NCBI GenBank assembly: GCA_003225315.1 | Contig: QHZD01000026.1 | Span: forward strand, 62,001-126,000 | Length of the DNA: 64,000 nucleotides | Reading direction: 5' to 3' | Source of the DNA: Acidobacteriota bacterium | GTDB lineage: Bacteria; Acidobacteriota; Terriglobia; Acidiferrales; UBA7541 | Part shown: in pieces, positions 30,131 to 44,752 of the stretch | Position numbering within the stretch: position 1 is the stretch's first letter | Layout of the letters: every line of letters begins with the position of its first letter | Translations under genes and position numbers: made by a program | Notes under the pieces: model-generated | What the model saw: the letters and a program-made list of their open reading frames with translations, nothing else | Databases searched by the model: none | What the model was told of the DNA's origin: nothing

Positions 30131-33100
30131 TTATTCTTGAGCCGCTTTTTCGGGTTGGAGATAGAAATGAATCGCGGGCGTGAAGATGAGCGAAAGCACC
30201 ATGGAGCTCAGAATGCCGCCAACAACAGTGATGGCGAGCGGCTTGAGCATCTGGGAGCCCTTTCCGATCGCAAAAGCCAGCGGGAGCATGCCGGCGACGG
30301 TGGCGAGAGCGGTCATGGCAATGGGACGAAGACGGCGGCGGCTAGCCTGAATCATGGAGTCTCTAGAGGAAAAACCGAGAGCGCGGAAGCGGTGCTCGGC
30401 GTCCAGAAGGAGAATGCCGTTTTTTGCCACGATGCCGATGACCATGATCATGCCCATGAAGGACGCGACGTTAAACGTCGTACGACTGATGAGAAGTGCG
30501 AGCAAGCCGCCAAAGGTCGAGAGCAAAGCGGAAGCCAGAATCGCGGTTGGCGCGGAAAAGGTGCGGAACTCAAATAAGAGCACAGCGAACAGCAAAACCA
30601 GCGCCAGCAGGAGCACCATTAAGAGGTCGCGGAAAGATTTCAGCTGTTCGGCGTAAGTGCCGCCGTATTCCACGCGGATGGAAGACGGAAGATGGAGATC
30701 GTTGACAGCTTTCTTGACCGAAGCGATGCCCGAACCAAGGTCCACGCCTTCGAAGCGCCCCGTCACTTCCACAAGGCGCTGAAGATTCTCGCGGCGGATT
30801 TCCGTCTGGCCGGGGTCCGAGCTGACCGTCGCGAGGGAACCGAGAGTGGCCGTGCGTCCCGTGGCGCTGGCGAGGAGTGTGCTGCTCATGCGATCCAGAG
30901 TCGAGCGAACTTGTTCGGGAAATCGAACGCGTATGGTGTATGCGCGATCGTTTACAACCACGGGTGTGGCGGCGGGTTCGCCTTCCAGAATGGCGGAAGC
31001 ATCCACAGCAACCTCTTCGGGGGTGAAGCCCGCGCGCGCAGCCACGGCAGGATTGATTTGAAACGTGGTTGCGGGCCCGCTGATGGTGTTCTCGATGCCG
31101 TCAAGCACATCGACAACGCCGTGAACTTTCTGAATGGCATCGGCAACGCGCGGCGCAGTGTTCGCGAGGAGCTTGGGATCCTGCGAGAACAATTTGATGA
31201 CGATGGGTTCCGGCTGACTGGTGAGGTCGCCGATCATGTCCTGCAGGACCCGGACGAATTCCACCTTGGCGGCAGGCTCCGTCTGCTCGATTTCCGAGCG
31301 AACGTCGGAGATGACCTCATCGATGCCGCGCTTACGGTCGCGCTTGAGCTTGACGGTGAAGTCGCCGCGATTGGCTTCCGTGACCGCGGCGAGGCCAAGC
31401 TGCAAACCAGTGCGGCGGGACGTGTTTTCAACTTCGGGCTGCGAGCGAACGATTTCCTCGATGTGCTGGAGGATGCGGTCGGATTCCGCGAGTGCACTCC
31501 CAGGAGGAGTCCAATAATCGAGAATGAAGCCGCCCTCGTCCATTTCGGGAAGGAGGTCGGAACCGAGCGCCTTATAACAAACGAACGCGAGGATAACGAT
31601 GAGGGCGGAACTTCCGGCCAAAAGAAAAGGCCGCTTGAGGACCGCTTCCATCGCGCGCGCATAAAACGCAACCACACGGCCGAAAAAACCGGACAAATGG
31701 GCTTCTTCGGCGGCAAGAAGCGCGGCAGCATCACCGCCATGTGATGACTCCGCTTCGGCGGGTGGCGTCGCGCCGCGGCGGACAAGATACTGGCTGAGCG
31801 TGGGCGTCCAGGACAAAGCGAGCAGAAGCGACGTAAAAAGCGAGACGGTCATGGTAACGGCGAGCGCGCGGAAAAAGCTTCCGGTCACGCCGGTGATGGA
31901 GATCAAGGGAAGAAAAACAACAATCGGAGTGATAGTCGAGCCGATCAATGGAGTCGTCATTTCTTTGAGTGCGCTTTGAATCGCTTCGAAGCGGCCCTGA
32001 CCGGCGTCGCGATGCAAGACGATGTTTTCGAGGACTACGATGGCGTCATCAATGACCAGGCCAACAGCGGCAGCCAGACCGCCAAGGGTCATGAGATTGA
32101 AGCTCTGGCCGGTGAGCCTGAGGACAATGAACGTGATAAGCAAGGTTGCCGGAATCACGAGGCCTGCAACAAGCGATGTACCCCAGTCGCGCAAAAAGAG
32201 AACGAGGATGATGGAGGAGAACAGCAACCCCAGCAACACCGCGTCACGTACGCTGGCGATGGATTCGTGAACGATGGTGGATTGATCGTAGAACGGCTCG
32301 ATGCGCACGCCGGGGGGAAGCGAGGGGCGAATCTCTTCGATCTGAGCGTGAACTTCGTTAGCGACATCAAGCGTATTGCTGTCCGGCTGACGATGCACGC
32401 TAAGCAGGACAGCGGGCTTGCCATTGGCCGTAACCATGGTGTAGACCGGCGCAACGGACGGCGCGATGTTCGCAATATCGCCGAGCCGAATGGGAACGCC
32501 CGCTATTGAAGTCTTCACGACAATCTGGCCGAGTTGCTCCGGCGTGCGAACCTGGCCGCTAATCAGGCCAAGCACCAATTGATGATTGTTTTCGATAAGA
32601 CCAGGCGAGTCGATGAGGTTGGTGCGGCGGATGGCATCGAGAATATCGTTGACGGTGATGCCGGCCGCAAGAAGGCGAGCCGGCTCGGGCATGACCTGAA
32701 ATTCCGGAACGCGGCCGCCCTGCACAAGGACGGAAGCAACGCCATCGAGCCGGTTCACGCGCGGCTTGATGTCGTAGGTGGCAATCTCCCAAAGTTTGTT
32801 TTGAGGAATGGTGTCGGAGGTCAGGCTGTAGCCGAGAATGGGAAACGTGGCGAAGGTGAGGCGATGCGTCTCAATCTTGGCCGTCGGCGGCAATTCCGAC
32901 TGCAAGCGGGCCACGACGGCGTCCACGCGCTGGAGCGTCAGAATCATGTCGCTCGTCCAGTCAAAAAAAAGATCGACCTCCGCGGAACCGCGGCTGGTAA
33001 TCGACTGAACTTTTTGTAAACCGGGAACGCTGTTGACGGCTTCCTCGACGGGGCGCGTGATGATCACGAGCATTTGGTCGATGGGCATCACGCCGTTGTC

Positions 33101-33298: not shown

Positions 33299-34654
33299 TT
33301 AGTCCTTGTCCTTGGCGGCAGGTTTCGCGGCAGCGGCAGGCTTTTCGGACTTGCCGGATTTGTTATCGGGCTCTTTTTCCACCGGCGCCGGTGTTTCGAT
33401 CTTAACCTGGGTGTTATCCGGAAGCCCGTAGCCTCCCGAGCTGATAACCGGATCGCCGGCGGCAACGCCACTGACAATTTGGGTGAATTCGGCGTTGCGC
33501 ACGCCCACTTGAACGGTTTTGAGACGCGCGTGGCCATCGGAGCCGACGAGTAAGACATAATCCGTTCCCTCGGGATTTTTGTAAATCGCGGGAGTGGGTA
33601 CGACGAGCGCGTCTTTCACCGTTTTCGCGGTCATGGAAAGTTGCACGGTCATGCCGGGTTTCAGCGCTGGGTCCGGCTCGGACGCTTCAACCCATACTTC
33701 AATCGTGGTGCTGCCGGGATCGAGTGCGGGGCTGACCAAACTGACGCGGCCTTTGACGGGCCCTTCAAGAGCGGGGATTTTCAGCTCCGCGGGATTGCCC
33801 ACTTTCAGAACCGCTGCTTCGGATTGAGCGATGTGCGCTTTCGCGATGAGCCGAGATGTATTCATCACGGTGAGCAAGGGTTGATTGGCGGTGGCGAGGT
33901 CACCTTCAAAAAGCGGGCGATCAGTGACGACGCCATCGATGGGACTCGTGATTCTGGAATAACTGAGCAGTGCTTCGGCGCCCCTCATTCTGCCTTCGGC
34001 GGACGCGCGCGAGCCCTGGACGGACTTGAGCGTTTGCTCTTTTCCCACGCGCTGAAGGTCGGCAAGTTGTTTCTGCGCTTGCTCGTTCTGGCTGCGGGCC
34101 TGAAGAAAAGCGACTTCGGCGGAATCCAAGTCTTTCCGGGGAATGGCTCCTTGTTGGAACAATTCCTTGCGGCTCTCATAGACTTTCTGTTGCGCTTCGA
34201 AATTCGACTTCGCGGCGACGGCGTCGAGCTGTGCCTTTTGAATCTGCTGCGGAAGGCTGGCATCAACGGTGGTTACGTAGTTGGCGTCCGCTTGCTCGAA
34301 ATCGCCCTTGGTGGATTCCGCGGCGGCGGACAGATCCTTGTTTTCCAGCTCTGCAAGCAATTGTCCTTTTTTAACTCGCGCGCTTCGTTGCACGTAGAAT
34401 TTCTTGATGGTCGAACTGATCTTTGGCGCGACTGTGGCTTGCTCCAGCGGATAGACTACGGCTTCCGCCGAAATCACTTGTGAGATGGGAGCGCGCCGAG
34501 CAGGCGTGGTTTGCACGGAGACGACGGGTTCTTTTTCTTTTTCTTTTTCGTCCTTGCTGCAACCGGTGGCGATGCAGAGTATCACCGCGATGGCGGTGAA
34601 AAAAGCCGCCGCTTTGCAGCGCGATGCCAGAGTGGTGATGGTCGTCGAGGTCAT
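33299..34654 (-). CDS. RND efflux adaptor lipoprotein (451 aa)
   Basis: A periplasmic membrane fusion protein anchored as a lipoprotein: the signal sequence ends in a lipobox with the cysteine in CIATGCSKDEK. A run of alternating Lys and Glu follows. The lipoyl domain halves are around VSAEAVVYPLEQATVAPKI and SYSRITSPIDGVVTDRPL, separated by a long coiled-coil hairpin rich in Ala, Gln and Lys. A beta-barrel and membrane-proximal domain follow, and the tail is Lys/Ala-rich (KPAAAAKPAAKDKD). The ATG overlaps the outer membrane factor stop by four bases. It links the RND pump to the outer membrane channel. Confidence 0.92.
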   Translation of the reverse strand: MTSTTITTLASRCKAAAFFTAIAVILCIATGCSKDEKEKEKEPVVSVQTTPARRAPISQVISAEAVVYPLEQATVAPKISSTIKKFYVQRSARVKKGQLLAELENKDLSAAAESTKGDFEQADANYVTTVDASLPQQIQKAQLDAVAAKSNFEAQQKVYESRKELFQQGAIPRKDLDSAEVAFLQARSQNEQAQKQLADLQRVGKEQTLKSVQGSRASAEGRMRGAEALLSYSRITSPIDGVVTDRPLFEGDLATANQPLLTVMNTSRLIAKAHIAQSEAAVLKVGNPAELKIPALEGPVKGRVSLVSPALDPGSTTIEVWVEASEPDPALKPGMTVQLSMTAKTVKDALVVPTPAIYKNPEGTDYVLLVGSDGHARLKTVQVGVRNAEFTQIVSGVAAGDPVISSGGYGLPDNTQVKIETPAPVEKEPDNKSGKSEKPAAAAKPAAKDKD

Positions 34655-36036
34655 GGAGTTGTTAGAACCCCCGTCAGCGTTTGCAAATTAGCCAGGGCCA
34701 CGCGGTAGCGCACGGCTCCGTCCTGGTAGGCGGCGTTGGCTTGCGCGAAAGTGGTCTGGGCGTCCACGACTTCCAGAACGGTGGCTTCCCCGCCCTTGTA
34801 GCGGAGGGTGATGAGACGCAGGCTTTCTGCTGAGAGTTCAGCCGCGCGGTTGAGTCCGCTGAGTTCGTTCAAAGCCGTTTCCGCTTCAGCGTAGAGAGAC
34901 TTTATTTCAGCGAGGAGCTTGCGCTGGGCGAGGGAGAGTTCTTGCTGGGCCTGCGTGCGCCGCAGCTCCGCCTGCTTGATGCGGCTTTGCGTGGCGCCCC
35001 AGTTCCAGACGGGAATATTCACGGTGGCCGCAGCGGAAGAGCCCAGATTGGAAACTCCGCCCGGACCGTTCACGGCAAACTGCGGGGCGTCGATTCCGTA
35101 CCAATAATCGAAGCTGAGCGAGGGCAAATAGCCCGCGTGCGCGCCGGTGACGTCGTGGCCCGCTTGCTGAACGGCGGCCAGCGCCGCGCGAAGATCGGGA
35201 TTGTCGCGCGCGGCGCGCTGTTGGACTTCTGCTAGAGCCGGCAGCGGTACACTCGCATGAAGATCTTCGGCAAGTTCAAAGTTGTCGTTGAAGTCGGGAA
35301 AGATCAGCACTGCAAAATCGAGCCGGGCATTCAGAAGCCCAAGCTGCGCCTCCAGCAGTTGCCGATGGCGGTCCTGCACTTGCAGTTCCGCCTTAATGAC
35401 GTCGGCGTGCGCGACTTCTCCTCCTCTTTCGAGGTCTTGGGTCAGTTTTAGGAAACTGTCGCCTTCGTCTCCATTTTTCTTCGCGGCTTCCAGCTTCTGC
35501 TGTGCAGCTGCCACAGCGTAGTAGCTCTGGACGACGGTAACAACAAGCCCGCGCGAAGCAATTTCCGCGCGCGCTTTCGCAAGAGCAGACGCCGCGGAAG
35601 CCCGGCGGTAATTCGAGATGGACAGTAAATCGATGGACTCGTGCACGTTGGCCTGACTGACGTATTCGTGAACAGCGTTGTTGGCGATGTACCTCACGGG
35701 ATTGCCTGGCCCGTTGCTCTGCGTGTAGAGCGCCTGATTACTGTACGTGACGGTGGGGAGCAGGGCCGCTGCGGCTTGATAATGGTCCTGACGTACAATC
35801 GCGGCGTCGGTCTGCGCGGCCAGGAATTGCGTGCTGTTCTTTCTGGCGCGCGCAAGGGCATCTTCGAACGTGAGGCGGAGCACCGGCGAAGCAGGAGGCG
35901 GCGTCTGTTGGGCATTATTGGCAGGCACTGTACCTGCGGGGGCTGGCGATTCCTGCGCTCCGGCACTCCCCACAAGAGACACGAACAGGGCAGCCACCGA
36001 GGTCCACGGCAGAACGAGGGTGCGAAGCGTTTTCAT
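34651..36036 (-). CDS. TolC-family outer membrane efflux protein (461 aa)
   Basis: An outer-membrane channel of the OEP/TolC family. A signal peptide ends near residue 27 (LVGSAGAQE), a Pro/Ala linker follows, then two OEP repeats made of long amphipathic helices, for example SLYAEAETALNELSGLNRAAE, RLITLRYKGGEATVLEVVDA and the C-terminal QDGAVRYRVALANLQTLTG. A trimer would form the exit duct for the adaptor and RND protein encoded next. It is separated by 81 bases from the histidine kinase gene upstream, with AGGAG about 11 bases before the ATG. Confidence 0.93.
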   Translation of the reverse strand: MKTLRTLVLPWTSVAALFVSLVGSAGAQESPAPAGTVPANNAQQTPPPASPVLRLTFEDALARARKNSTQFLAAQTDAAIVRQDHYQAAAALLPTVTYSNQALYTQSNGPGNPVRYIANNAVHEYVSQANVHESIDLLSISNYRRASAASALAKARAEIASRGLVVTVVQSYYAVAAAQQKLEAAKKNGDEGDSFLKLTQDLERGGEVAHADVIKAELQVQDRHRQLLEAQLGLLNARLDFAVLIFPDFNDNFELAEDLHASVPLPALAEVQQRAARDNPDLRAALAAVQQAGHDVTGAHAGYLPSLSFDYWYGIDAPQFAVNGPGGVSNLGSSAAATVNIPVWNWGATQSRIKQAELRRTQAQQELSLAQRKLLAEIKSLYAEAETALNELSGLNRAAELSAESLRLITLRYKGGEATVLEVVDAQTTFAQANAAYQDGAVRYRVALANLQTLTGVLTTP

Positions 36037-36117
36037 AAGTGTTCGACTCCTGGGCCGGACGAAAATAGGTGCGCGGCAGGAAGAAGTTATGGTAACGAAA
36101 CGAAGCTAAACACAGGA

Positions 36118-37572
36118 TTAACTGCCAGTTGCAGAGGGAAGCGGCTCCGCCGGGAGGTACGCTGTAAAGGTGCTTCCGGCCGAGTTGGAATGCGTCAGTT
36201 CCAAACGGCCGTGATGGGCCTCGGCAATCCAGCGGGAAATGGACAGGCCGAGGCCGGCGCCACCGCCGTCGTTTTCAGAACGGGAGCGCGCTTTGTCAGC
36301 GCGGAAGAAGCGCTCGAAGATGCGGGGCTGCAGGTCCGCTGGAATGCCAGCCCCCGTATCGGTGATGCTCAAGGCATATTCCTTTCCCGCCCGACGGCAC
36401 GTAACGCTGACGCTTCCACCCTCCGGAGTGTACTTAATGGCGTTATCCAGAAGATTGAGGATCATGCGGCGCAACAAGGATTCATCCGCATGAATGGGAG
36501 ACTCGGATGCTTCTTCGAGATTGAGACAAATCTTTTTTGCGAGAGCCAAAGTCCTGGCCGAATGCACGCACTCGGCGATCAGTTCATCGAGATAAAAATC
36601 GCGGGGCTGGAGCGGATACTGCCCGGCGTCTGCTCGCGTAAGCGTAAAGAGATCCTCGACAATGTGGGTAAGCCGCTCGGCTTCCTGGTGAAGTACAGCC
36701 AGAGATTCGCGGTATTCCTCCAACGAACGCCCCTGCTGCGAAAGGGCGACCTCCGCTTCACCGCGCAAAATCGCAATCGGCGTGCGCAACTCGTGCGAGG
36801 CATCAGCCATGAAACGGCGCTGGCGTTCGAATGACTGGCTGAGGCGGTCCAACAAACTATTGAACGACTGGGCGAGGTGCCCCAGTTCGTCCCTGTCATT
36901 CTGGACCGCCAGCCGCTCGTGCAGATTGGCAGCGCCGATGCGGCCAGCTTGCGTGCTCATGGCCACCACGGGAGCGAGGCTCTTGCGCGCGAGAAAGTAG
37001 CCGCCAGCGCTGGCAAGCACGATAGCGATCGGGATGACCCATGCGAATGTTGCGGTCACTTCTTCGAGCATCTCTTGTTGCTGGTGAAGCGATTGCAGGA
37101 TGACGAGGGTATATGTCTTTCCCAATGATGAAAAATGCCGCGCAAATCCGCGGTAGCCATCCCTGCCGCCTTTAACCTTGCCAAATAATCGGTCGGCGCG
37201 AGAAGAGGCATCGAAAAAATGCTGAAAGGAAGGCGAGGAAAAAGGTGCCGTGGAGGAAGCAGGCGGGACCTCTTGAGAACTGACGACGATATTTCCTGCG
37301 TCATCAAAAATCGCGAATACGTGATCGCGAAAGCGATGTTCCGTGATGGCCACTTGTCCGGCGAGTCTCAGCGAATCGGGGCCGCTTTGATCGTTCACTT
37401 CCGCATCAAGAGTGGTGAGGAAGGCTTCGGAGAGTTCGGCGAGGTTCACATCGGTGCGCTGAACCGTGCTCCGCCAAAAAATAAAGTACGTGATCGTCGA
37501 GAGCGCAATCAGAACGAGCGTCAAGACTGCCGTATACCAGAGAGTGAGCCGGACGCGGACGGAATCAAGCAT
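36118..37572 (-). CDS. Sensor histidine kinase (484 aa), CusS-like architecture
   Basis: An inner-membrane kinase with helices near residues 11-33 and 174-196 framing a periplasmic sensor of about 140 residues, a HAMP domain, the phospho-acceptor His260 in MADASHELRTPIA, and an ATPase domain with N box NLLDNAIKYTPEGG, G1 DTGAGIP and G2 GGAGLGLSISRW. The start at 37572 overlaps the response regulator stop by eight bases (ATGCTTGA), so translation is coupled. The efflux genes follow in the same direction, so they are the likely targets. The ligand cannot be read; CusS-like kinases sense metals. Confidence 0.92.
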   Translation of the reverse strand: MLDSVRVRLTLWYTAVLTLVLIALSTITYFIFWRSTVQRTDVNLAELSEAFLTTLDAEVNDQSGPDSLRLAGQVAITEHRFRDHVFAIFDDAGNIVVSSQEVPPASSTAPFSSPSFQHFFDASSRADRLFGKVKGGRDGYRGFARHFSSLGKTYTLVILQSLHQQQEMLEEVTATFAWVIPIAIVLASAGGYFLARKSLAPVVAMSTQAGRIGAANLHERLAVQNDRDELGHLAQSFNSLLDRLSQSFERQRRFMADASHELRTPIAILRGEAEVALSQQGRSLEEYRESLAVLHQEAERLTHIVEDLFTLTRADAGQYPLQPRDFYLDELIAECVHSARTLALAKKICLNLEEASESPIHADESLLRRMILNLLDNAIKYTPEGGSVSVTCRRAGKEYALSITDTGAGIPADLQPRIFERFFRADKARSRSENDGGGAGLGLSISRWIAEAHHGRLELTHSNSAGSTFTAYLPAEPLPSATGS

Positions 37573-38326
37573 GGTTCTTCCGGCCTGGAGACGCGGCCTT
37601 GGCACGATGACGTGACGAGATGCTTTCGTCGGCTGCGTCTGCGACTTCCGAATCAGTCAGAGGGCCGAAGAAGTAGCCGGCGCCGCGGCGGGTATGAAGC
37701 AACGGTTTCCTGGAATCCGCGTCAATTTTGCGGCGCACGCGATTCACGTAAACCTCGATCAGATTCGAGAAGGGATCGAACGTTTCATCCCACACGTGCT
37801 CGGCAATTTCCGCACGTCCGACGACGCGGCCGGTGTTGCGCGCCAGATATTCGAGCAGCGCATATTCCTTGGCGGTGAGTGGCACACTGCGGCCAACCCG
37901 GGAAACGCTTTGCGCTGCGGTATCCAGGACAAGGTCGGCGACGGTTATTTTGGCGGGGCGCAGCTCACCGGAACGGCGCAGCAACGCGCGGAGACGCGCG
38001 AGCAATTCGCGGAATTCAAACGGCTTGGTGAGGTAGTCGTCGGCGCCGTGATCGAGGCCGGCGATGCGGTCTTCCACGGCATCGCGCGCGGTCAGCATCA
38101 AAATGGGCATGCGTTGCCCCGATTTTCGCAGGTCACGGCAAACTTCAAAACCGTTGCGGCCGGGAATCATGACATCGAGAATTACCAGGTCGTAGGTATT
38201 GATCGCCGCCTGATAGAGCGCGTCGTCGCCGCTGTTGGCGATATCCACGGCGTAGGCTTGTTCGCGCAAGCCCTTGGCCACGAATCGCGCAATGCGCCCA
38301 TCGTCTTCAACTAACAGGAGCCGCAT
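37565..38326 (-). CDS. OmpR-family response regulator (253 aa)
   Basis: A receiver with Asp8-Asp9, phospho-acceptor Asp51 (LVILDVMIPG), Thr79 and Lys101 (DYLTKPFEF) all intact, joined to a winged-helix DNA-binding domain (LTAKEYALLEYLARN, VYVNRVRRKID, RRGAGYFFG). It has a 35-residue charged C-terminal extension beyond the usual end. The ATG at 38326 begins directly with the first receiver strand; a TTG eight codons earlier is less likely. It heads the gene order regulator, kinase, outer membrane factor, adaptor, RND pump. Confidence 0.93.
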   Translation of the reverse strand: MRLLLVEDDGRIARFVAKGLREQAYAVDIANSGDDALYQAAINTYDLVILDVMIPGRNGFEVCRDLRKSGQRMPILMLTARDAVEDRIAGLDHGADDYLTKPFEFRELLARLRALLRRSGELRPAKITVADLVLDTAAQSVSRVGRSVPLTAKEYALLEYLARNTGRVVGRAEIAEHVWDETFDPFSNLIEVYVNRVRRKIDADSRKPLLHTRRGAGYFFGPLTDSEVADAADESISSRHRAKAASPGRKNHA

Positions 38327-38427
38327 GCGAGCATCATACGGCAGGTGCAAGGAAAAGTGAGAGACTTGCCCGTGGATTGCCGGACAATGGCTGCACCGAA
38401 AAAAGCTCTAAAAGCATCAAAGTGGAC

Positions 38428-39240
38428 ATGAAGTTCAAGAGAGTCGAACCGGAACAATTGGATTGCACGAAAACCGCGATGCGGCCCTTTGGCTGCATGG
38501 AACTGTGGGCCGGCAATGAAAAGGCGCACCGTTCATTGGAGCTTGCCGGACTAGAAAGCGATATCATCGCCGTGCCTTCAGGAGGGGACAAAGGTGGCGA
38601 TCTCTCTGCCGTATTTTCTTGCAGCGACAATCTCGCCCGCGTGGTCCTCGCGGATTGCGTTGGCCATGGTTACACGGCCAGCAGCGTAGCGCGGCACGTT
38701 CATCACCTTCTGCATAAATTCCAGGACGTTCGAGACACAGCGGGTTTGCTGACGGCGCTCAATGACGCCTTTACGCTCTCCAATGAAAAATCGAAAGGTC
38801 CTCTGCGCCTGACCACGGTCGTCACAGGAACTTTTGACGGGACAAGCGGTGAGTTTAACTTTGCATATGCGGCGCACCCGAGAATGCTTCTGTGGCGCGA
38901 GCGCGAGCGGCAGTTCTTGGAGTTGGGCGAGGGATTGGAGGGCTTGCCGCTGGGATACATCACGGGCGAAACCTACAATCAACAAAGCGTGCGGCTGAAC
39001 CACGGCGACATGATTCTCGCGTTTTCCGATGGCGCAATTGAGGTCCGCTCGCCAGCGGGAGAGCAACTCACGGCCAAGGGGTTTTTACGCCTTGCGGAAA
39101 GTACGCGGCGCAAATTGCCTCAGCCGCTGGTGCTGCATGATTTTTCTCATGCGTTGCTCGAGGGTGTGCATCTTTACCGTGGCCGCGAAAGCGAGTTGGA
39201 GGATGACATAACGCTACTGACGCTTCGGCGCATGGCTTAG
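38428..39240 (+). CDS. SpoIIE-type PP2C serine phosphatase (270 aa)
   Basis: A cytosolic phosphatase of the SpoIIE/RsbU type. Metal-binding motifs are GGDKGGDLSAVF, VLADCVGHGYTAS, LAFSDGAIEV and LEDDITLLTLRR, complete for catalysis. These enzymes remove phosphate from STAS anti-sigma-antagonist proteins and so reverse the action of RsbW-type kinases. Here an RsbW-like kinase and a STAS protein are encoded 3.5 kb away in the neighbouring operon, so this is a candidate third member of the switch. No sensory domain is fused to it. The start is uncertain: ATG at 38428 is used, GTG at 38422 and TTG at 38377 are alternatives. Confidence 0.88.
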   Translation: MKFKRVEPEQLDCTKTAMRPFGCMELWAGNEKAHRSLELAGLESDIIAVPSGGDKGGDLSAVFSCSDNLARVVLADCVGHGYTASSVARHVHHLLHKFQDVRDTAGLLTALNDAFTLSNEKSKGPLRLTTVVTGTFDGTSGEFNFAYAAHPRMLLWRERERQFLELGEGLEGLPLGYITGETYNQQSVRLNHGDMILAFSDGAIEVRSPAGEQLTAKGFLRLAESTRRKLPQPLVLHDFSHALLEGVHLYRGRESELEDDITLLTLRRMA

Positions 39241-39284: not shown

Positions 39285-39974
39285 CTATTTGACAGGATGG
39301 GACGCGAAGTACTGGTCCAGACTTTCCACAATTTCTTGCACGGCGCGCTGGACGTTCTTATCCAACGCCGCGACGATTGCCGGAACATCTTTCCCCGCAG
39401 TAGGTTCGTCGTGGGTGTAGTAGTGGGTCCAAACGGTCGCGCCATTTTTCAGGTCGCGCATTTCCAAATCGAAGGTGACTCTCGCTGACATCTGCGACCC
39501 GGTGAGTTCCTTGAAATCGTAGAGATGCCCGCGGAGGGCGAAGTCTCCCTTCATATTGCTGCGCCGGTAATGGACAGCGCGGTAGCGGCCCGATGCGCGC
39601 AGGTGTCGCAGCAAGACCTCCTGAATCATTTCCGCTGGCGGCTCCGCCCAACGCTGATACTCATAGGTGCCCAACTGCTCAGGGCCGTTCCCATAGACGA
39701 TGCGATCTTCGCGATACAAGTGGGAAGTCATCAATCCGCCGAGAAGCAGCGACACGGGAATAGCGTCCTTTCCTTCGACGGCAGCCGCATCGGTCGGAAC
39801 GGTGAGCTGGTAATACTTGCTCGGGTGCGTAGCGCCGCAGCCGGAGAGCAATCGGAGGGTCAGCGCAACAGCCGTGATTAGGGCACGTCTAGCCGCTCCA
39901 CGAGATTTTTCTCCTGATCCGTTTGGCACCCTTTTTTGGTATCGCGGCTCCGCGTCACCTCGCATTCGGCTCAC
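39285..39974 (-). CDS. ABC-type transport auxiliary lipoprotein (PqiC/YmbA-like, 229 aa)
   Basis: An outer-membrane or periplasmic lipoprotein of the ABC-transport auxiliary family. The lipobox is LRLLSGCGAT, about 45 residues from the GTG start, and the mature part begins KYYQLTVP as is usual in this family. Such proteins (PqiC, and PF03886 members in Mce/Mla operons) assist MCE-domain proteins in carrying lipids across the periplasm. The GTG start overlaps the MlaD stop by four bases (GTGA); an ATG three codons on is possible. It completes the operon and may take the place of MlaC, which is absent here. Confidence 0.82.
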   Translation of the reverse strand: MSRMRGDAEPRYQKRVPNGSGEKSRGAARRALITAVALTLRLLSGCGATHPSKYYQLTVPTDAAAVEGKDAIPVSLLLGGLMTSHLYREDRIVYGNGPEQLGTYEYQRWAEPPAEMIQEVLLRHLRASGRYRAVHYRRSNMKGDFALRGHLYDFKELTGSQMSARVTFDLEMRDLKNGATVWTHYYTHDEPTAGKDVPAIVAALDKNVQRAVQEIVESLDQYFASHPVK

Positions 39975-40939
39975 TGTCGTTCTCCCGGTTTGTGCTCGCG
40001 CGGGTTACTTGACCGGATCAGCGTGTACGGCCTGGTCTTGATGGTGTTCGTGAATTCCTTGAGATTCTGGCTCACGTGCCGCAAGTTTTCGAGCAGTTCA
40101 TCGATGTTCTCGGAGTTAACGTCAAGCGTTTGATCCAACCGCCCTGTTAGTTCCGTTACCGTAGCAAGAGAGCGCCGCAATTCGATTACCGCCTGGCGAA
40201 CGTCGGCGCGATTCTCTCCAATCAAAGAATCGACATGATTCAACGCCTCATTGGCCTGCGCCGAGGTCTTCCGCAAATCCTCCAGCAGGGGCTCCAGCTT
40301 TTTCGTTGCGGAATTTAAGTTCTGCACCGTCGCCTTCACAGGGGCGCGATTCTCCGCAATCATTCCGCGAGTCTCGGCCAGCGTCCCGGCCAGGTTCGCT
40401 CGATTCGAATCGTTCAGTAGATCGTTGACGCGGGCCAGGGTTATTTGCAGATCGCCCGCACGGTCGTTGAGCGTCTTGAGAAGTTGCTGCGCCTGTGGCG
40501 CAATGTCATTGATCTTTGCCGTGAGCGCATTAAAGTCCACGTAGGGGTCGGAGGGCAGGATTGTACCCGTCGCCGCCATCGCGGCCTTTTCTGTTCCCGG
40601 AACAATTTCCAGATGATTGTCGCCCAGCGGACTCAAACTCATGATCTTTACGTGGCTATCCGTTTTGACCGGCAAGCCGGACTTCACGCTGAACGTTATT
40701 TCGATGCGCGAAGGATTCTTCGGGTCCAGCTGCAATTTCTCGACACGGCCGACTTTCGGCCCGCCCGCGTAGCGCACGCTCGCGCCCGGTTCCAATCCGC
40801 CGGCAAACGGAAAATACGCACGATACGTCGCGGCTGCGCTCCCGAACGCGCCGGTAAGCGCGAAAACAGTGGCCACCAATACCGCCGCGGCGATCAGGAC
40901 AAACAATCCCACCATGGCTTGTTCGCGTTTCGCTTCCAT
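39971..40939 (-). CDS. mlaD: MlaD-like MCE-domain protein (322 aa)
   Basis: A membrane-anchored substrate-binding protein of a lipid-transport ABC system. One N-terminal helix (MVGLFVLIAAAVLVATVFAL) is followed by an MCE domain at about residues 36-115, including VRYAGGPKVGRVEKL. The remaining 190 residues are a long helical coiled coil, longer than E. coli MlaD and more like Mce-type proteins that build a periplasmic channel. GAGAGAGG is just before the ATG. It follows mlaF and overlaps the lipoprotein gene. Confidence 0.9.
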   Translation of the reverse strand: MEAKREQAMVGLFVLIAAAVLVATVFALTGAFGSAAATYRAYFPFAGGLEPGASVRYAGGPKVGRVEKLQLDPKNPSRIEITFSVKSGLPVKTDSHVKIMSLSPLGDNHLEIVPGTEKAAMAATGTILPSDPYVDFNALTAKINDIAPQAQQLLKTLNDRAGDLQITLARVNDLLNDSNRANLAGTLAETRGMIAENRAPVKATVQNLNSATKKLEPLLEDLRKTSAQANEALNHVDSLIGENRADVRQAVIELRRSLATVTELTGRLDQTLDVNSENIDELLENLRHVSQNLKEFTNTIKTRPYTLIRSSNPREHKPGERQ

Positions 40940-40961
40940 GACCCACCTCTCTCCCCGCTCC

Positions 40962-41804
40962 TTAACGGCCCGGATGGCGGTGTTCTTCCGTCAGCATTTG
41001 CAGATAGTCCAATTCTTCGGAGACTGCCGGCTCTGCAATGCGGTCGAGGAATTGCCGCACGCGCGGATGCGTGCTCGAACGCATTGCTTCGGTTGTTCCG
41101 ATAGCTACCACGTTGCCCTTGTCGATCAGCACCATGCGGTCAGCAATCAAGAATGCGCTGGCCAGTTCGTGTGTGACCACGATAATGGTCATGTGAAACG
41201 CCTGCTTGAGCTCAAGGATCAGCTGATCCACGCCGGCAGCAATAATAGGGTCCAGGCCCGCGGAAGGCTCGTCAAAAAATAGAATCTCAGGATCCATGGC
41301 CAATGCTCGCGCCACTGCGGCGCGCTTCTTCATGCCACCGCTCAACTGCGATGGCTTATAGTTTTCGTACCCCGACAAACCGACCTGATCCAGCTTCAAC
41401 CGCAAAATGATTTCGATGGTCGAATCTTCGAGTTTGGTGTGTTCGCGCAGCGGCAGCGCCACGTTCTCACCGACGGTCATCGAACCAAATAGCGCGCCGC
41501 CTTGAAACGACATGCCGATTTTTTTCCTGATCTCATCCATCTCGCCAGATGAAATCGCCGCAATGTTTTTGCCCTTGAGCCAGATCTCGCCGGAGCTCGG
41601 CCTTTCGAGGCCCACCAGCGTGCGCAACAGCGTGCTCTTGCCGGAACCGGAACCGCCTAGAATCACGAGCGTTTCGCCACGCATCACATCGAAGCCGATG
41701 CCGTGGAGAATCTCGCGCTCGCCGTAACTGACGCGAAGATTCCGCAATGAGATCATCGACTCTGTATCCGTCATCGCCGTCGCCGCACTGTTGCTCTGTC
41801 CCAT
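40962..41804 (-). CDS. mlaF: MlaF-like ABC transporter ATPase (280 aa)
   Basis: The cytosolic ATPase of the lipid-transport system. Walker A is GGSGSGKST, the signature is LSGGMKKRAAVARALA, and Walker B is ILFFDEPSAGLDP; the MKKR variant of the signature and the IAAGVDQLI segment are typical of MlaF/Mce-associated ATPases. The ATG at 41804 is used; a TTG four codons upstream directly follows the mlaE stop. It works with the permease MlaE encoded just before and the MCE protein encoded after. Confidence 0.93.
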   Translation of the reverse strand: MGQSNSAATAMTDTESMISLRNLRVSYGEREILHGIGFDVMRGETLVILGGSGSGKSTLLRTLVGLERPSSGEIWLKGKNIAAISSGEMDEIRKKIGMSFQGGALFGSMTVGENVALPLREHTKLEDSTIEIILRLKLDQVGLSGYENYKPSQLSGGMKKRAAVARALAMDPEILFFDEPSAGLDPIIAAGVDQLILELKQAFHMTIIVVTHELASAFLIADRMVLIDKGNVVAIGTTEAMRSSTHPRVRQFLDRIAEPAVSEELDYLQMLTEEHRHPGR

Positions 41805-41819
41805 GACGAAATCCAAATC

Positions 41820-42617
41820 CTATCTTTCACTCATAAAGAAAAAGAGCGCGGTAAAGACGAGGTCCACCAGTATTACCAGGAATATGGACACTACCACGGC
41901 CCGCGTGGTTGATCGCCCGACTTGTTCCGCGCCCGCGCCCGTAGACAGCCCTTCGTGGCATCCCACGGCCGTAATGGTTATGCCGAACATGACGCTTTTG
42001 ACTAAGCCTGTGGTGATGTCGCGCAAGAACAGGGCGTCCAGCGAGGCCTGAATATAACGGAACCACGTGAAGTCGGCCTGCGTCACGCCAAAGAGCGCTC
42101 CGCCGAGAATCCCCATGGAGTTCGCCCAGATCGTCAGGCACGGCAGCATCACGATCATGGCGGTGAATTTCGGAGCCACCAGAAAGTGAATCGGATCGAT
42201 GGCCATGGTTTCCAGCGCGTCGATTTCTTCCGTCACCTTCATCGTGCCGATTTCCGCGGCGAACGCCGAGCCGGACCGTCCGATGACCACGATGGCGGTA
42301 ATCAGCGGCCCGAGTTCCCGCGTCATGGAAATTGCCACGGCACTGGCGACGAAATTTATGGCGCCAAACTTGCGCAGCTCATAAGCGCTCTGCAGCGCCA
42401 GAATCAGCCCAATAAAAAACGTAATCAAGGAAAGGATGGGCAACGCCCCGACGCCGGTTTGCATGGCCTGCGAAATGGCGCGCTGCAAACGCAGCGGCTT
42501 TCCCTGGAAGGGCGCGACGAATGTGAAATACGCGGCCCGGGTCCCCAGCGTGGTCAGCGCCCCCAGATAGGCAAGCCCGTCGGTAACTGATTCCCCAATT
42601 TGCGTCGTCAGTTCCAC
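41820..42617 (-). CDS. mlaE: MlaE-like ABC transporter permease (265 aa)
   Basis: The membrane permease of the MCE-type lipid transporter with about five helices. Family marks are ALPILSLITFFIGLILALQS, the glutamate-rich loop RELGPLITAIVVIGRSGSAFAAEIGTM (positions about 95-121) and EEIDALETMAIDP. It starts at a GTG. It lies between the STAS gene (42 bases upstream) and mlaF. In E. coli the permease binds MlaB, a STAS protein, and a STAS gene is likewise next to it here. Confidence 0.93.
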   Translation of the reverse strand: MELTTQIGESVTDGLAYLGALTTLGTRAAYFTFVAPFQGKPLRLQRAISQAMQTGVGALPILSLITFFIGLILALQSAYELRKFGAINFVASAVAISMTRELGPLITAIVVIGRSGSAFAAEIGTMKVTEEIDALETMAIDPIHFLVAPKFTAMIVMLPCLTIWANSMGILGGALFGVTQADFTWFRYIQASLDALFLRDITTGLVKSVMFGITITAVGCHEGLSTGAGAEQVGRSTTRAVVVSIFLVILVDLVFTALFFFMSER

Positions 42618-42659
42618 ATTGCTCTCGCCGGGCTTCCTCGATTTGCGGATCTAGCAGGC

Positions 42660-42992
42660 TCAGGGCGCAACGGATTGTGCTTCGTTTTCGTAAATCTCGA
42701 AAATTCTCACCAGTTTGGAAAGTTGCAGAACTTCTCGCACTGTTTTATTCAAGCCGAACAGGATCAAGCGCGAGCCGACATCGCGCGATGCCTTGAGGCC
42801 CTCCACCAGCGACGCCACTCCGGAACTATCAATGTAGCGAACGGCACCCAGGTTGAGCACCACGCGCGGCATCTTCAATTCGCGAAGCTCGCGCAAGAGC
42901 GCCTTCCGCAGTTGAGGTGACGTCGCGAGGTCGATGTCTCCCGAAATATCAAAGATGGTGGTCTTGTCCAAATGGCGTGCGGCAATCTGCAA
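42660..42992 (-). CDS. STAS-domain protein, anti-sigma-factor antagonist or MlaB-like (110 aa)
   Basis: A single STAS domain with the phosphorylatable serine in VRYIDSSGVASLVEGLK at about residue 57 and the opening ISGDIDLATSPQLRKAL. The serine context fits SpoIIAA/RsbV-type antagonists that are switched off by RsbW kinases. Its position before mlaE also fits MlaB, the STAS subunit that stabilises MlaF in the Mla complex. Both roles could be combined. The start is a TTG with AGGAG eight bases upstream. The kinase gene lies 12 bases before it. Confidence 0.9.
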   Translation of the reverse strand: MQIAARHLDKTTIFDISGDIDLATSPQLRKALLRELRELKMPRVVLNLGAVRYIDSSGVASLVEGLKASRDVGSRLILFGLNKTVREVLQLSKLVRIFEIYENEAQSVAP

Positions 42993-43004
42993 GATGGATT
43001 CTCC

Positions 43005-43466
43005 TCACGCGCCTTTCTTAGGCGCCTGCACATGCAAAAATTTCACCAGCCGAAGCTGATTTCTGCCGTTGTTGCGGCTGAATTCTACTGTATCCATGCA
43101 CTCGCGGATGAAGTGCAGCCCCAGGCCGCCGGGCCGCACATCCTCGAGCGCGCGCCCGCACATCTTCTCTGGATTCGCTGTCACTCCGTTATCTTCCAGC
43201 ACGATTTCAAGAGCGTCTCCAGACTGCCCATCTTTCGGCGCATCAATCCGGTGGAAGGACGCCTCGATGGGCTGCTCCTGCTCTCCAAGATAGGCATGAC
43301 GAATGATGTTGGTCAGCGCTTCGTCGACGGCGCGGACCACGGCTCGGCAATCCGGCTCAGAAAATCCTAACTTGGCGGTGAGTTCTCCCACTGCGTTTCG
43401 CACCACGCAGAGCATCTCAGGATTGCTCCGCAATTCCATTCTGAGTAGTAAACTGCCTCGGCTCAC
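43005..43466 (-). CDS. RsbW-like serine kinase / anti-sigma factor (153 aa)
   Basis: A single HATPase domain of the RsbW/SpoIIAB type: N box VVRAVDEALTNIIRHAY, a D-x-G segment in IVLEDNGVTANPEKM and the glycine-rich GGLGLHFIRECMD. These proteins phosphorylate a STAS partner and bind either it or a sigma factor. The GTG at 43466 is chosen because GAGGAG lies about nine bases upstream; an ATG nine codons later is possible, and the longer open frame upstream lacks family features. It heads a six-gene operon with the STAS gene and the Mla-type transporter. No sigma factor gene is seen in the window. Confidence 0.88.
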   Translation of the reverse strand: MSRGSLLLRMELRSNPEMLCVVRNAVGELTAKLGFSEPDCRAVVRAVDEALTNIIRHAYLGEQEQPIEASFHRIDAPKDGQSGDALEIVLEDNGVTANPEKMCGRALEDVRPGGLGLHFIRECMDTVEFSRNNGRNQLRLVKFLHVQAPKKGA

Positions 43467-43889: not shown

Positions 43890-43965
43890 TGGAGCGGAGA
43901 GCTAGGATTTGAACCCGCATTTTCCCGTGGGAACAGGACGCCTTGCCGAGTTAGACCATCTCCGC
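43890..43965 (-). tRNA. tRNA-Gly(CCC)-like gene with irregular arms, possibly a pseudo-tRNA
   Basis: The minus strand gives a seven-pair perfect acceptor stem (GCGGAGA with TCTCCGC), discriminator T as expected for glycine and an encoded CCA. The D arm is regular (GTCT/AGGC with a GG-containing loop) and the T loop reads GTTCAAATC. The anticodon arm pairs TCCTG with CGGGA around a loop of only six bases, TTCCCA, holding CCC. The T stem pairs only if one A is bulged. Two small indels relative to a canonical tRNA suggest decay, though the acceptor stem is intact. Confidence 0.6.
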
Positions 43966-44160
43966 CCAATATAGCGTATTACGTTTGAGGATTTCGAAAG
44001 GCAAGACGGTTGATTACCTAAGAATCCGTCAAAAAAGTCTTCAAAACTGCGTCGAGGAAAATGCTTAATCCTACTGGTGCCATCCAGAGAAACGGTCTCC
44101 AATGGCCAGACAGACAGTTGGTTAGGTAAGGGTTAGGTTGCCTGTAAGTTGTTGAAAAGT

Positions 44161-44752
44161 GGCGGACGGGCCTGTAAGCCGGATTCTGTGCCGCACGCAA
44201 ACCTCAAAACGGCTTGCATGCGCGGCGATCATTCCTCTAAGTCACGATTCGCACCGTGACTCCAGCAGCCTACCCGAGGGTTATCCTCCGCGGTGGCTTG
44301 CACCACCGCAGAAGGAGCTTTCGCTCATCGAGCCGGGCCGGCTCTCCCCTCCTATTTGGCCTTGCACCACGCGGGGTTTTCCGTGCCTCCCGTGTCGCCA
44401 CGGGAGCGGTGGGCTCTTACCCCACCTTTTCACCCTTGCCAAACGATGCGTGCTCTTCGAAGACGTCTCGCAGGTTTCCCTGCGCGATGCCACCGTGCTG
44501 CGCTCCGCCGGCGGTTTATTTTCTGTGGCACTTTCCGTGGCGCCTCTAGTGGGACAGGCATTCCTGCCTGTCCTCCCGGATTCGCCCCCTGGCGTTACCA
44601 GGCGCGTTGCCCTGTCAAGAGTTCCGCTCCTCACAAAAGTGCAGAGCGTGCCTCAGGACGGTGTCCGGACTTTCCTCCCGTCCTCGGTCATCTCCAGCCT
44701 CGCAAGAGGCCGACTAAAGACCGGGACCAGCGATCACCCGGCCCGCCCGCCG
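44161..44752 (-). ncRNA. rnpB: RNase P RNA
   Basis: The catalytic RNA of RNase P, which removes 5' leaders from pre-tRNAs. The conserved blocks appear in order on the minus strand: GAGGAAAGTCCGGACACC, a TAACG hairpin, ACAGAAAATAAACCGCC, AAGGGTGAAAAGGTGG with GGTAAGAGCCCACC, GGGTAGGCTGCT and ACAGAATCCGGCTTACAGG. The ends pair as helix P1 (44740-44751 with 44161-44172, one G-U). A TATAAT lies seven bases before the predicted 5' end. At about 590 bases it is long for the family; several helices are extended and one contains an inserted palindromic repeat. It diverges from the membrane protein gene at 44806. Confidence 0.96.
44551..44574. repeat. Palindromic repeat inside rnpB
   Basis: GGACAGGCA and TGCCTGTCC form perfect nine-base arms around TTCC. 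The element sits in a variable helix region of rnpB between the TAACG hairpin and the conserved ACAGAAAATAAACC block, where it lengthens a hairpin. It has the look of a dispersed REP-like unit. Confidence 0.7.

Follow-up and report, generated by a model that had tools for sequence, protein, structure and literature searches.

The window analysed here, a 64,000-nucleotide stretch of the genome of an Acidobacteriota bacterium (GenBank assembly GCA_003225315.1, contig QHZD01000026.1), carries on its reverse strand an operon in which genes for an RsbW-type serine kinase and a free-standing RsbV-type STAS protein precede those of a putative lipid transporter of the MCE class, with a gene for a SpoIIE/PP2C phosphatase lying alongside. 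We propose that these three proteins probably constitute a dedicated partner switch that sets the binding of the STAS protein to the transporter ATPase, MlaF, and hence the activity of the transporter. Gene content, conservation, the loss of contact residues alongside loss or decay of the kinase, and the C-terminal tail of MlaF are read from sequence; phosphotransfer, competition for the STAS protein, the direction of the switch and the lipid cargo are what we infer. In the proposed mechanism the STAS protein would be both an MlaB-type partner of MlaF and the substrate of the adjoining kinase, which would dock on it (Arg23 to Asp21, Glu49 to Ser56) and phosphorylate Ser56. Unphosphorylated STAS would assemble MlaF into the transporter; kinase and MlaF would compete for one face of the STAS protein, and either bound kinase or a phosphate on Ser56 would keep it off MlaF, stopping lipid transport. 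The PP2C would strip the phosphate and allow MlaF to assemble and work; its counterpart in many relatives has an input domain of the GAF, FHA, HAMP or HDOD kind. The module would amount to RsbU-RsbW-RsbV with an ABC transporter as its output.

The contact residues between kinase and STAS protein are central to this proposal. The kinase gene (43005..43466, reverse strand; PF13581, HATPase_c_2, 5e-22) encodes 153 residues from a GTG at 43466, and the STAS gene (42660..42992, reverse strand; PF01740, 3.3e-22) encodes 110 residues from a TTG. STAS residues D21 (codon 42930-42932) and S56 (codon 42825-42827) align with SpoIIAA positions 23 and 58, and it is this alignment that places S56 as the predicted phospho-acceptor. 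In RsbV, Asp23 belongs to the GEID motif. The crystal structure of the Bacillus subtilis RsbV-RsbW complex has RsbW Arg23 bonded to RsbV Asp23 and Glu49 bonded to Ser56, which is located at the kinase interface (PMC7340262). In the 56 kinase-bearing operons that we compared, STAS Asp21 and the DSSG motif (residues 55-58, including Ser56) are invariant (56/56 each), as are kinase Arg23 (codon 43398-43400 in the window) and Glu49 (codon 43320-43322), whereas of 32 operons without an intact kinase (free-standing STAS, no kinase match above 50 bits, at least 600 nucleotides upstream), 3 retain Asp21 and 8 retain DSSG. An unbiased scan of all STAS columns found that D21 separates the two groups best, followed by Ser92, with Ser57 third; the Fisher p-values for such comparisons (3e-20 for D21) ignore relatedness.

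Upstream of STAS in 30 of these 32 kinase-less loci there is nothing worth calling a kinase, although 6 of the 30 have less than 1000 nucleotides of upstream sequence. The other two loci, L138 and L139, hold a decayed kinase frame in the kinase's place (17-19 bits). When compared by eye with the window kinase, both frames have lost the equivalents of Glu49 and Asn53 and the GGLG motif, and L138 alone has also lost R23; in their STAS proteins Ser56 is retained and Asp21 is replaced by Thr, as expected if Asp21 serves an active kinase. These two loci come from genomes G357 and G358 of family f81, within the same order as the window's genome, and possibly represent a pseudokinase stage.

The phosphatase gene (38428..39240, forward strand; PF07228, 9.3e-31; alternative start of the open reading frame at 38377) is convergent, tail-to-tail, with the operon and ends 44 nucleotides from the 3' end of its last gene. 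A PP2C gene lies within 5 kb in 40 of the 56 kinase operons and in 1 of the 32 free-STAS operons without an intact kinase. Its position varies: 24 of the linked genes are upstream on the same strand, in the order PP2C-kinase-STAS-MlaE, 14 are downstream and convergent like that of the window, 1 is upstream and divergent, and 1 is downstream on the same strand. Of 74 genomes sampled from the order, 28 bear the kinase and 46 lack it, and a PP2C homologue (at least 52% identity) occurs in 17 of the former and 2 of the latter. Among the 17, at least that of G045 sits by another, weak kinase match, as do the PP2C of G051 and the second PP2C of G363. Ten of the 24 upstream phosphatases were scanned for input domains, giving GAF in 8 (one together with FHA), HAMP in 1 and HDOD in 1, which makes them sensor phosphatases of the RsbU type. 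The window PP2C has no input domain recognised by Pfam and is likely to be the phosphatase of the phosphorylated STAS protein.

These patterns bear on the possibility that the STAS protein, like its E. coli counterpart, is a fixed structural component, and that the kinase and PP2C are a regulatory pair of their own that does no more than share a transcript with the transporter. Kinase-less operons with equivalent STAS, MlaE and MlaF do occur and are presumably functional, as this explanation would have it. It does not sit well with a kinase-contact Asp that is kept in 56/56 kinase operons and lost in 29/32 others, nor with a PP2C linked in four distinct layouts, which argues for selection on the linkage; we consider it very improbable.

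The link between the STAS protein and MlaF was assessed from the MlaF side. The ~25-residue C-terminal tail of E. coli MlaF inserts Tyr261, Leu265 and Leu266 into the MlaF-MlaB interface (PMC7367683). The window MlaF (40962..41816, reverse strand) has a C-terminal extension at about residues 258-284, in which the segment LDYLQML, containing Y271 (codon 41004-41006), aligns with the E. coli segment GDYHADLL that holds Y261, L265 and L266. In a structure model this tail is coil followed by a helix at 268-277, at low confidence (predicted local distance difference test score, pLDDT, ~57-66). A tail of at least 20 residues is found in 86 of 87 operons with a free-standing STAS gene, kinase present or not, in 2 of 25 in which STAS is fused to MlaE, and in 1 of 36 MlaF proteins from operons lacking STAS (35 distinct, as L043 and L147 are one locus; L047-L055 are near-copies). 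The single tailed case without STAS, L159, is on a contig that starts at MlaE. A second MlaE operon in the window's own genome (contig C10; MlaE 37% identical, no STAS match) serves as an internal control, and its MlaF lacks the tail. A docking tail that tracks free-standing STAS genes in this way suggests an MlaF-contacting STAS protein, as the first-pass annotation of this DNA presumed. Its idea that phosphorylation of the STAS protein could switch lipid transport also gains support, the effect on transport being predicted from sequence. Ser56 falls at the position that Thr52 takes in E. coli MlaB, in the middle of the interface with MlaF; a phosphate or a bound kinase there should therefore block MlaF binding. 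In E. coli, Thr52 is near the centre of that interface and the T52E substitution lowers MlaF binding (Kolich 2020; PMC7367683), and SpoIIAA, RsbR and RsbS release their partners once phosphorylated (PMC7367683).

Several observations weigh against a phospho-switch of this kind. On a quick MlaE tree (91 rows, some long branches) 8 changes are required to account for the kinase label, and 5 or more of these fall on supported branches. D21 goes with the kinase in 4.2 of the 5 supported independent pairs on average and is never opposed, but with only 5 pairs the test falls short of significance (p 0.06-0.25); in the same pairs DSSG scores 2.0 with the kinase and 0 against, and linked PP2C 2.3 with and 0.2 against. 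Ser56 persists in 24 of the 32 operons lacking an intact kinase, and Ser56 alone was therefore rejected as a mark of phosphorylation. E. coli MlaB carries the Asp, and no kinase is known for it. At locus L117 (genome G370) the operon has D21 and a convergent PP2C with no kinase match anywhere in the genome (90% complete), which may mean that the kinase was lost recently or that the assembly has a gap there. As reported for Vibrio fischeri, SypA mutants at the equivalent Asp and at Ser57 do not follow the prediction of the kinase-contact model (PMC10120452), which cautions against carrying the residue argument over too readily. No PP2C is nearby in 11 kinase operons with sufficient flank, and none was seen in 5 further ones with short flank. 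Veillonella MlaF is described as having a shorter tail without MlaB (PMC10665443), so that the presence of a tail does not by itself prove that MlaF has a STAS partner. Finally, the T52A substitution in E. coli MlaB abolishes function as well (Thong 2016), and the residue may therefore have another role.

The T52A result also raises the possibility that phosphorylation switches the transporter on, either by freeing the STAS protein from sequestration by the kinase or by activating MlaF catalysis. T52A MlaB stays bound while ATPase activity is abolished, which indicates that the position matters for catalysis besides binding (Thong 2016; PMC7367683). The weakened MlaF binding of T52E in pull-downs and the loss of partners by SpoIIAA, RsbR and RsbS on phosphorylation point the other way (PMC7367683), and of the explanations considered here we give this one the least credence, at a very low level.

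A further alternative reverses the switch: the transporter would be the sensor, the STAS protein would move back and forth from MlaF to the kinase, and the latter, being freed or bound as a result, would control a regulator such as a sigma factor. Classical RsbW kinases bind sigma factors, and all 21 genomes searched (the window's and 20 chosen ones, all kinase-bearing) hold sigma-70-like proteins that score under the SigBFG cut-off, some of them, outside the window's genome, in frames of ~250-300 residues. Over the cut-off there is no SigB/F/G-type factor in any of the 21, a result that leaves room for other sigma factors, and in the window's genome the top SigBFG match is a 600-residue frame, the other 7 being short and partial. 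Every kinase orthologue in the 74 genomes of the order also lies beside a STAS gene, as expected if it has a local job. A sigma-factor partner for the kinase with no effect on the transporter was one of the findings that the first-pass annotation had named as undoing its proposal; none of the SigBFG class was found over the cut-off in these 21 genomes. We regard the reversed switch as unlikely.

The arrangement of genes is widespread. At the level of the family, a STAS search of 61 genomes gave 30 loci including the window's own, with neighbours identified by tblastn; in 21, STAS lies between the kinase, immediately upstream, and MlaE, and 9 lack the kinase and retain STAS-MlaE-MlaF. The order was sampled with 74 genomes of at least 80% completeness, in which orthologues were called at 52% identity or more for MlaE (or as high-identity fragments), 46% for the kinase and 52% for PP2C. 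An MlaE orthologue is present in 47 of the 74, and a kinase orthologue in 28 of these 47 and in none of the other 27. All 29 copies of the kinase adjoin a STAS gene, which takes the arrangement beyond chance, and MlaE is visible after 28 of them, the contig of L236 ending inside STAS. In the phylum sample, 284 of 297 genomes have an MlaE match and, among the 30 loci listed, the kinase occurs only in the window and in G117. Genomes of named species were then scanned with an MlaE alignment and the 80 loci closest to an MlaE of kinase operons were kept; with 59 others, including the window, they make 139 MlaE loci, or 131 after removal of 8 duplicates (L148 and L149 have no MlaE). Kinase, STAS and MlaE occur in this order at 56 of the 131, a proportion that is not a prevalence because the 80 named loci were picked by their likeness to kinase-operon MlaE. 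Left out of the comparison of 56 with 32 operons were 15 loci without a STAS match, 25 STAS-MlaE fusions and 6 contig-edge loci (3 with free-standing STAS and 3 counted among the fusions). The 56 fall into eight phylum-level groups (Acidobacteriota, Nitrospirota, Nitrospinota, Calditrichota, candidate division KSB1, Auribacterota, Tectomicrobia and Pseudomonadota), plus unassigned bacteria, and the named records that bear the kinase are metagenome-assembled. The conservation survey suggested along with the original observation thus finds the order recurring in the family, the order and other phyla, and a strain-specific accident is rejected. At L119, L121 and L123, MlaF and the MlaD gene downstream of it do not adjoin but are several kilobases apart.

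The transporter itself is, on sequence evidence, Mpc-like. It comprises an MlaE-type permease (41820..42617; PF02405, 4.2e-78; TIGR00056 above cut-off), the MlaF-type ATPase (top NCBIfam match MlaF at 239.9 bits, below the cut-off of 441), a long MlaD of 322 residues (39971..40939; PF02470, 4e-16, residues 38-115) with a single MCE domain and a long C-terminal part, and a PqiC-like ABC_trans_aux lipoprotein (39285..39974; PF03886, 1.1e-15), all on the reverse strand. MlaC and MlaA are missing: PF05494 and PF04333 are unmatched in the window's genome (97.6% complete), and an E. coli control was positive for both. The description of an Mla/Mce-type lipid transport operon accordingly stands for the genes, all of which are confirmed, but not for membership of the classical Mla system; the lipid cargo is suggested by family membership. 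Brucella Mpc, a chimera of Mla and Pqi, likewise combines MlaE, MlaF, a long MlaD, a PqiC-like lipoprotein and a STAS domain without MlaC, but its STAS domain is fused to MpcE and the main text of the report does not contain the word 'kinase' (PMC12436622), whereas here STAS is free-standing and accompanied by kinase and PP2C. E. coli MlaFEDB shares a STAS partner of MlaF, the MlaF tail and a Ser/Thr at the equivalent place; unlike the window operon, it has neither kinase nor PP2C, its MlaB is shorter (97 residues), and it works with the MlaA and MlaC that are missing here.

By sequence the kinase-STAS-PP2C trio belongs with partner-switching modules. It resembles RsbU-RsbV-RsbW and SpoIIE-SpoIIAA-SpoIIAB in its PP2C, HATPase kinase, STAS protein, contact residues and folds, and differs in having an ABC transporter as its linked output and in the absence of SigBFG factors over the cut-off (21 genomes). 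The V. fischeri pair SypA-SypE offers a precedent for a STAS protein that acts as an output through its own phosphorylation, with no sigma-factor release, but SypE is a single kinase/phosphatase protein, and here the likely target is a transporter ATPase (PMC10120452; PMC8256260). The STAS protein scores 81.3 bits against TIGR00377 (anti-sigma antagonist; cut-off 53.45), and the top NCBIfam match of the kinase is RsbW (59.4 bits, under the 145-bit cut-off). Against the curated MlaB family NF033618 the STAS protein reaches 20.8 bits where 90 are needed and is not a member, although it probably works like MlaB. In a model of kinase and STAS as one read-through chain (pLDDT 86; predicted template modelling score 0.76), the STAS half matches SpoIIAA, RsbV and TM1442 (Z 18.4-18.7; root-mean-square deviation 1.1-2.1; 101-113 residues aligned) and the kinase half matches SpoIIAB and RsbW (Z 17.2 and 16.6). 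The template modelling score is suggestive only as a sign of pairing. The 50 structural matches listed include no E. coli MlaB or MlaF chain, which proves nothing.

Phospho-regulation of MlaB has been proposed before, with no kinase named (Thong 2016; Kolich 2020, eLife). The idea is therefore not wholly new, and the view of the first-pass annotation that such control was undescribed for Mla holds for the candidate kinase and phosphatase, not for phosphorylation as such. Among the full-text matches listed, with preprints and most subscription papers outside the search, none joins an RsbW-type kinase or PP2C to an Mla/MCE operon. The Mce-associated Mas protein of Mycobacterium smegmatis, described as having a eukaryotic-type Ser/Thr kinase domain (PMC1810536), is a different case, and the word 'kinase' is not present in a survey of MCE gene neighbourhoods (PMC5561183). 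One survey is reported to have sought MlaB with the NF033618 profile (PMC10665443) and may have missed STAS proteins of the window type, given the 20.8 bits cited above. With kinase, phosphatase and a substrate bearing the contact residues encoded beside the transporter in several phyla, the old proposal becomes testable, with about four purified proteins. If the switch exists, partner switching gains a direct, non-transcriptional output and diderm bacteria a route to gate outer-membrane traffic quickly; many little-studied bacteria seem to carry an on/off switch on a putative lipid pump to or from the outer membrane. We incline, by a small measure, to the broader view that ABC lipid transporters are a second output class of partner switching, in which the trio exerts post-translational control over MlaF-type ATPases across 8 or more phylum-level groups, and kinase-less STAS proteins, possibly including E. 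coli MlaB, are remnants.

STAS proteins fused to MlaE form a separate set. In 22 such loci with enough flank the phospho-site reads DDFG in 7 and NDFG in 1, with Asp in place of Ser, a possible built-in phosphomimic; these loci (L204, L208, L213, L217, L223, L224, L230 and L232) are mostly from deltaproteobacterial records.

Genes in the window were called from a list of open reading frames, the sequence itself and Pfam and NCBIfam profile matches. These calls bear out the gene order that had been noticed from the letters alone (kinase, STAS, MlaE, MlaF, MlaD, lipoprotein, with gaps of at most 42 nucleotides), the RsbV-type phospho-serine context of the STAS protein (TIGR00377 and DSSG) beside its own HATPase_c_2 kinase, and the adjoining SpoIIE-type phosphatase. 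From the coordinates, the spacings are 12 nucleotides between kinase and STAS, 42 between STAS and MlaE, 3 between MlaE and MlaF and 22 between MlaF and MlaD, with MlaD and the lipoprotein overlapping by 4. The start of the kinase is uncertain between GTG 43466, TTG 43586 and ATG 43439, and the profile scan used a 193-residue frame. A promoter scan gave 4 sites against 2.0 expected, which lends no support, with one weak site upstream of the kinase at 43586-43559. Phage origin was rejected, as kinase, STAS and PP2C have no match in PHROGs. A second STAS-kinase pair in the window's genome (G000), on contig C48 at 30592-31370 (L003), has unrelated neighbours and no MlaE nearby. Just upstream of the operon, on the reverse strand, are a tRNA gene (43893-43965) and a class A RNase P RNA (44159-44749). 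Beyond the PP2C, at 33299-38350 on the reverse strand, lie efflux adaptor-like and outer-membrane-factor-like genes, recognised by eye, and a two-component kinase/regulator pair identified by profile match.

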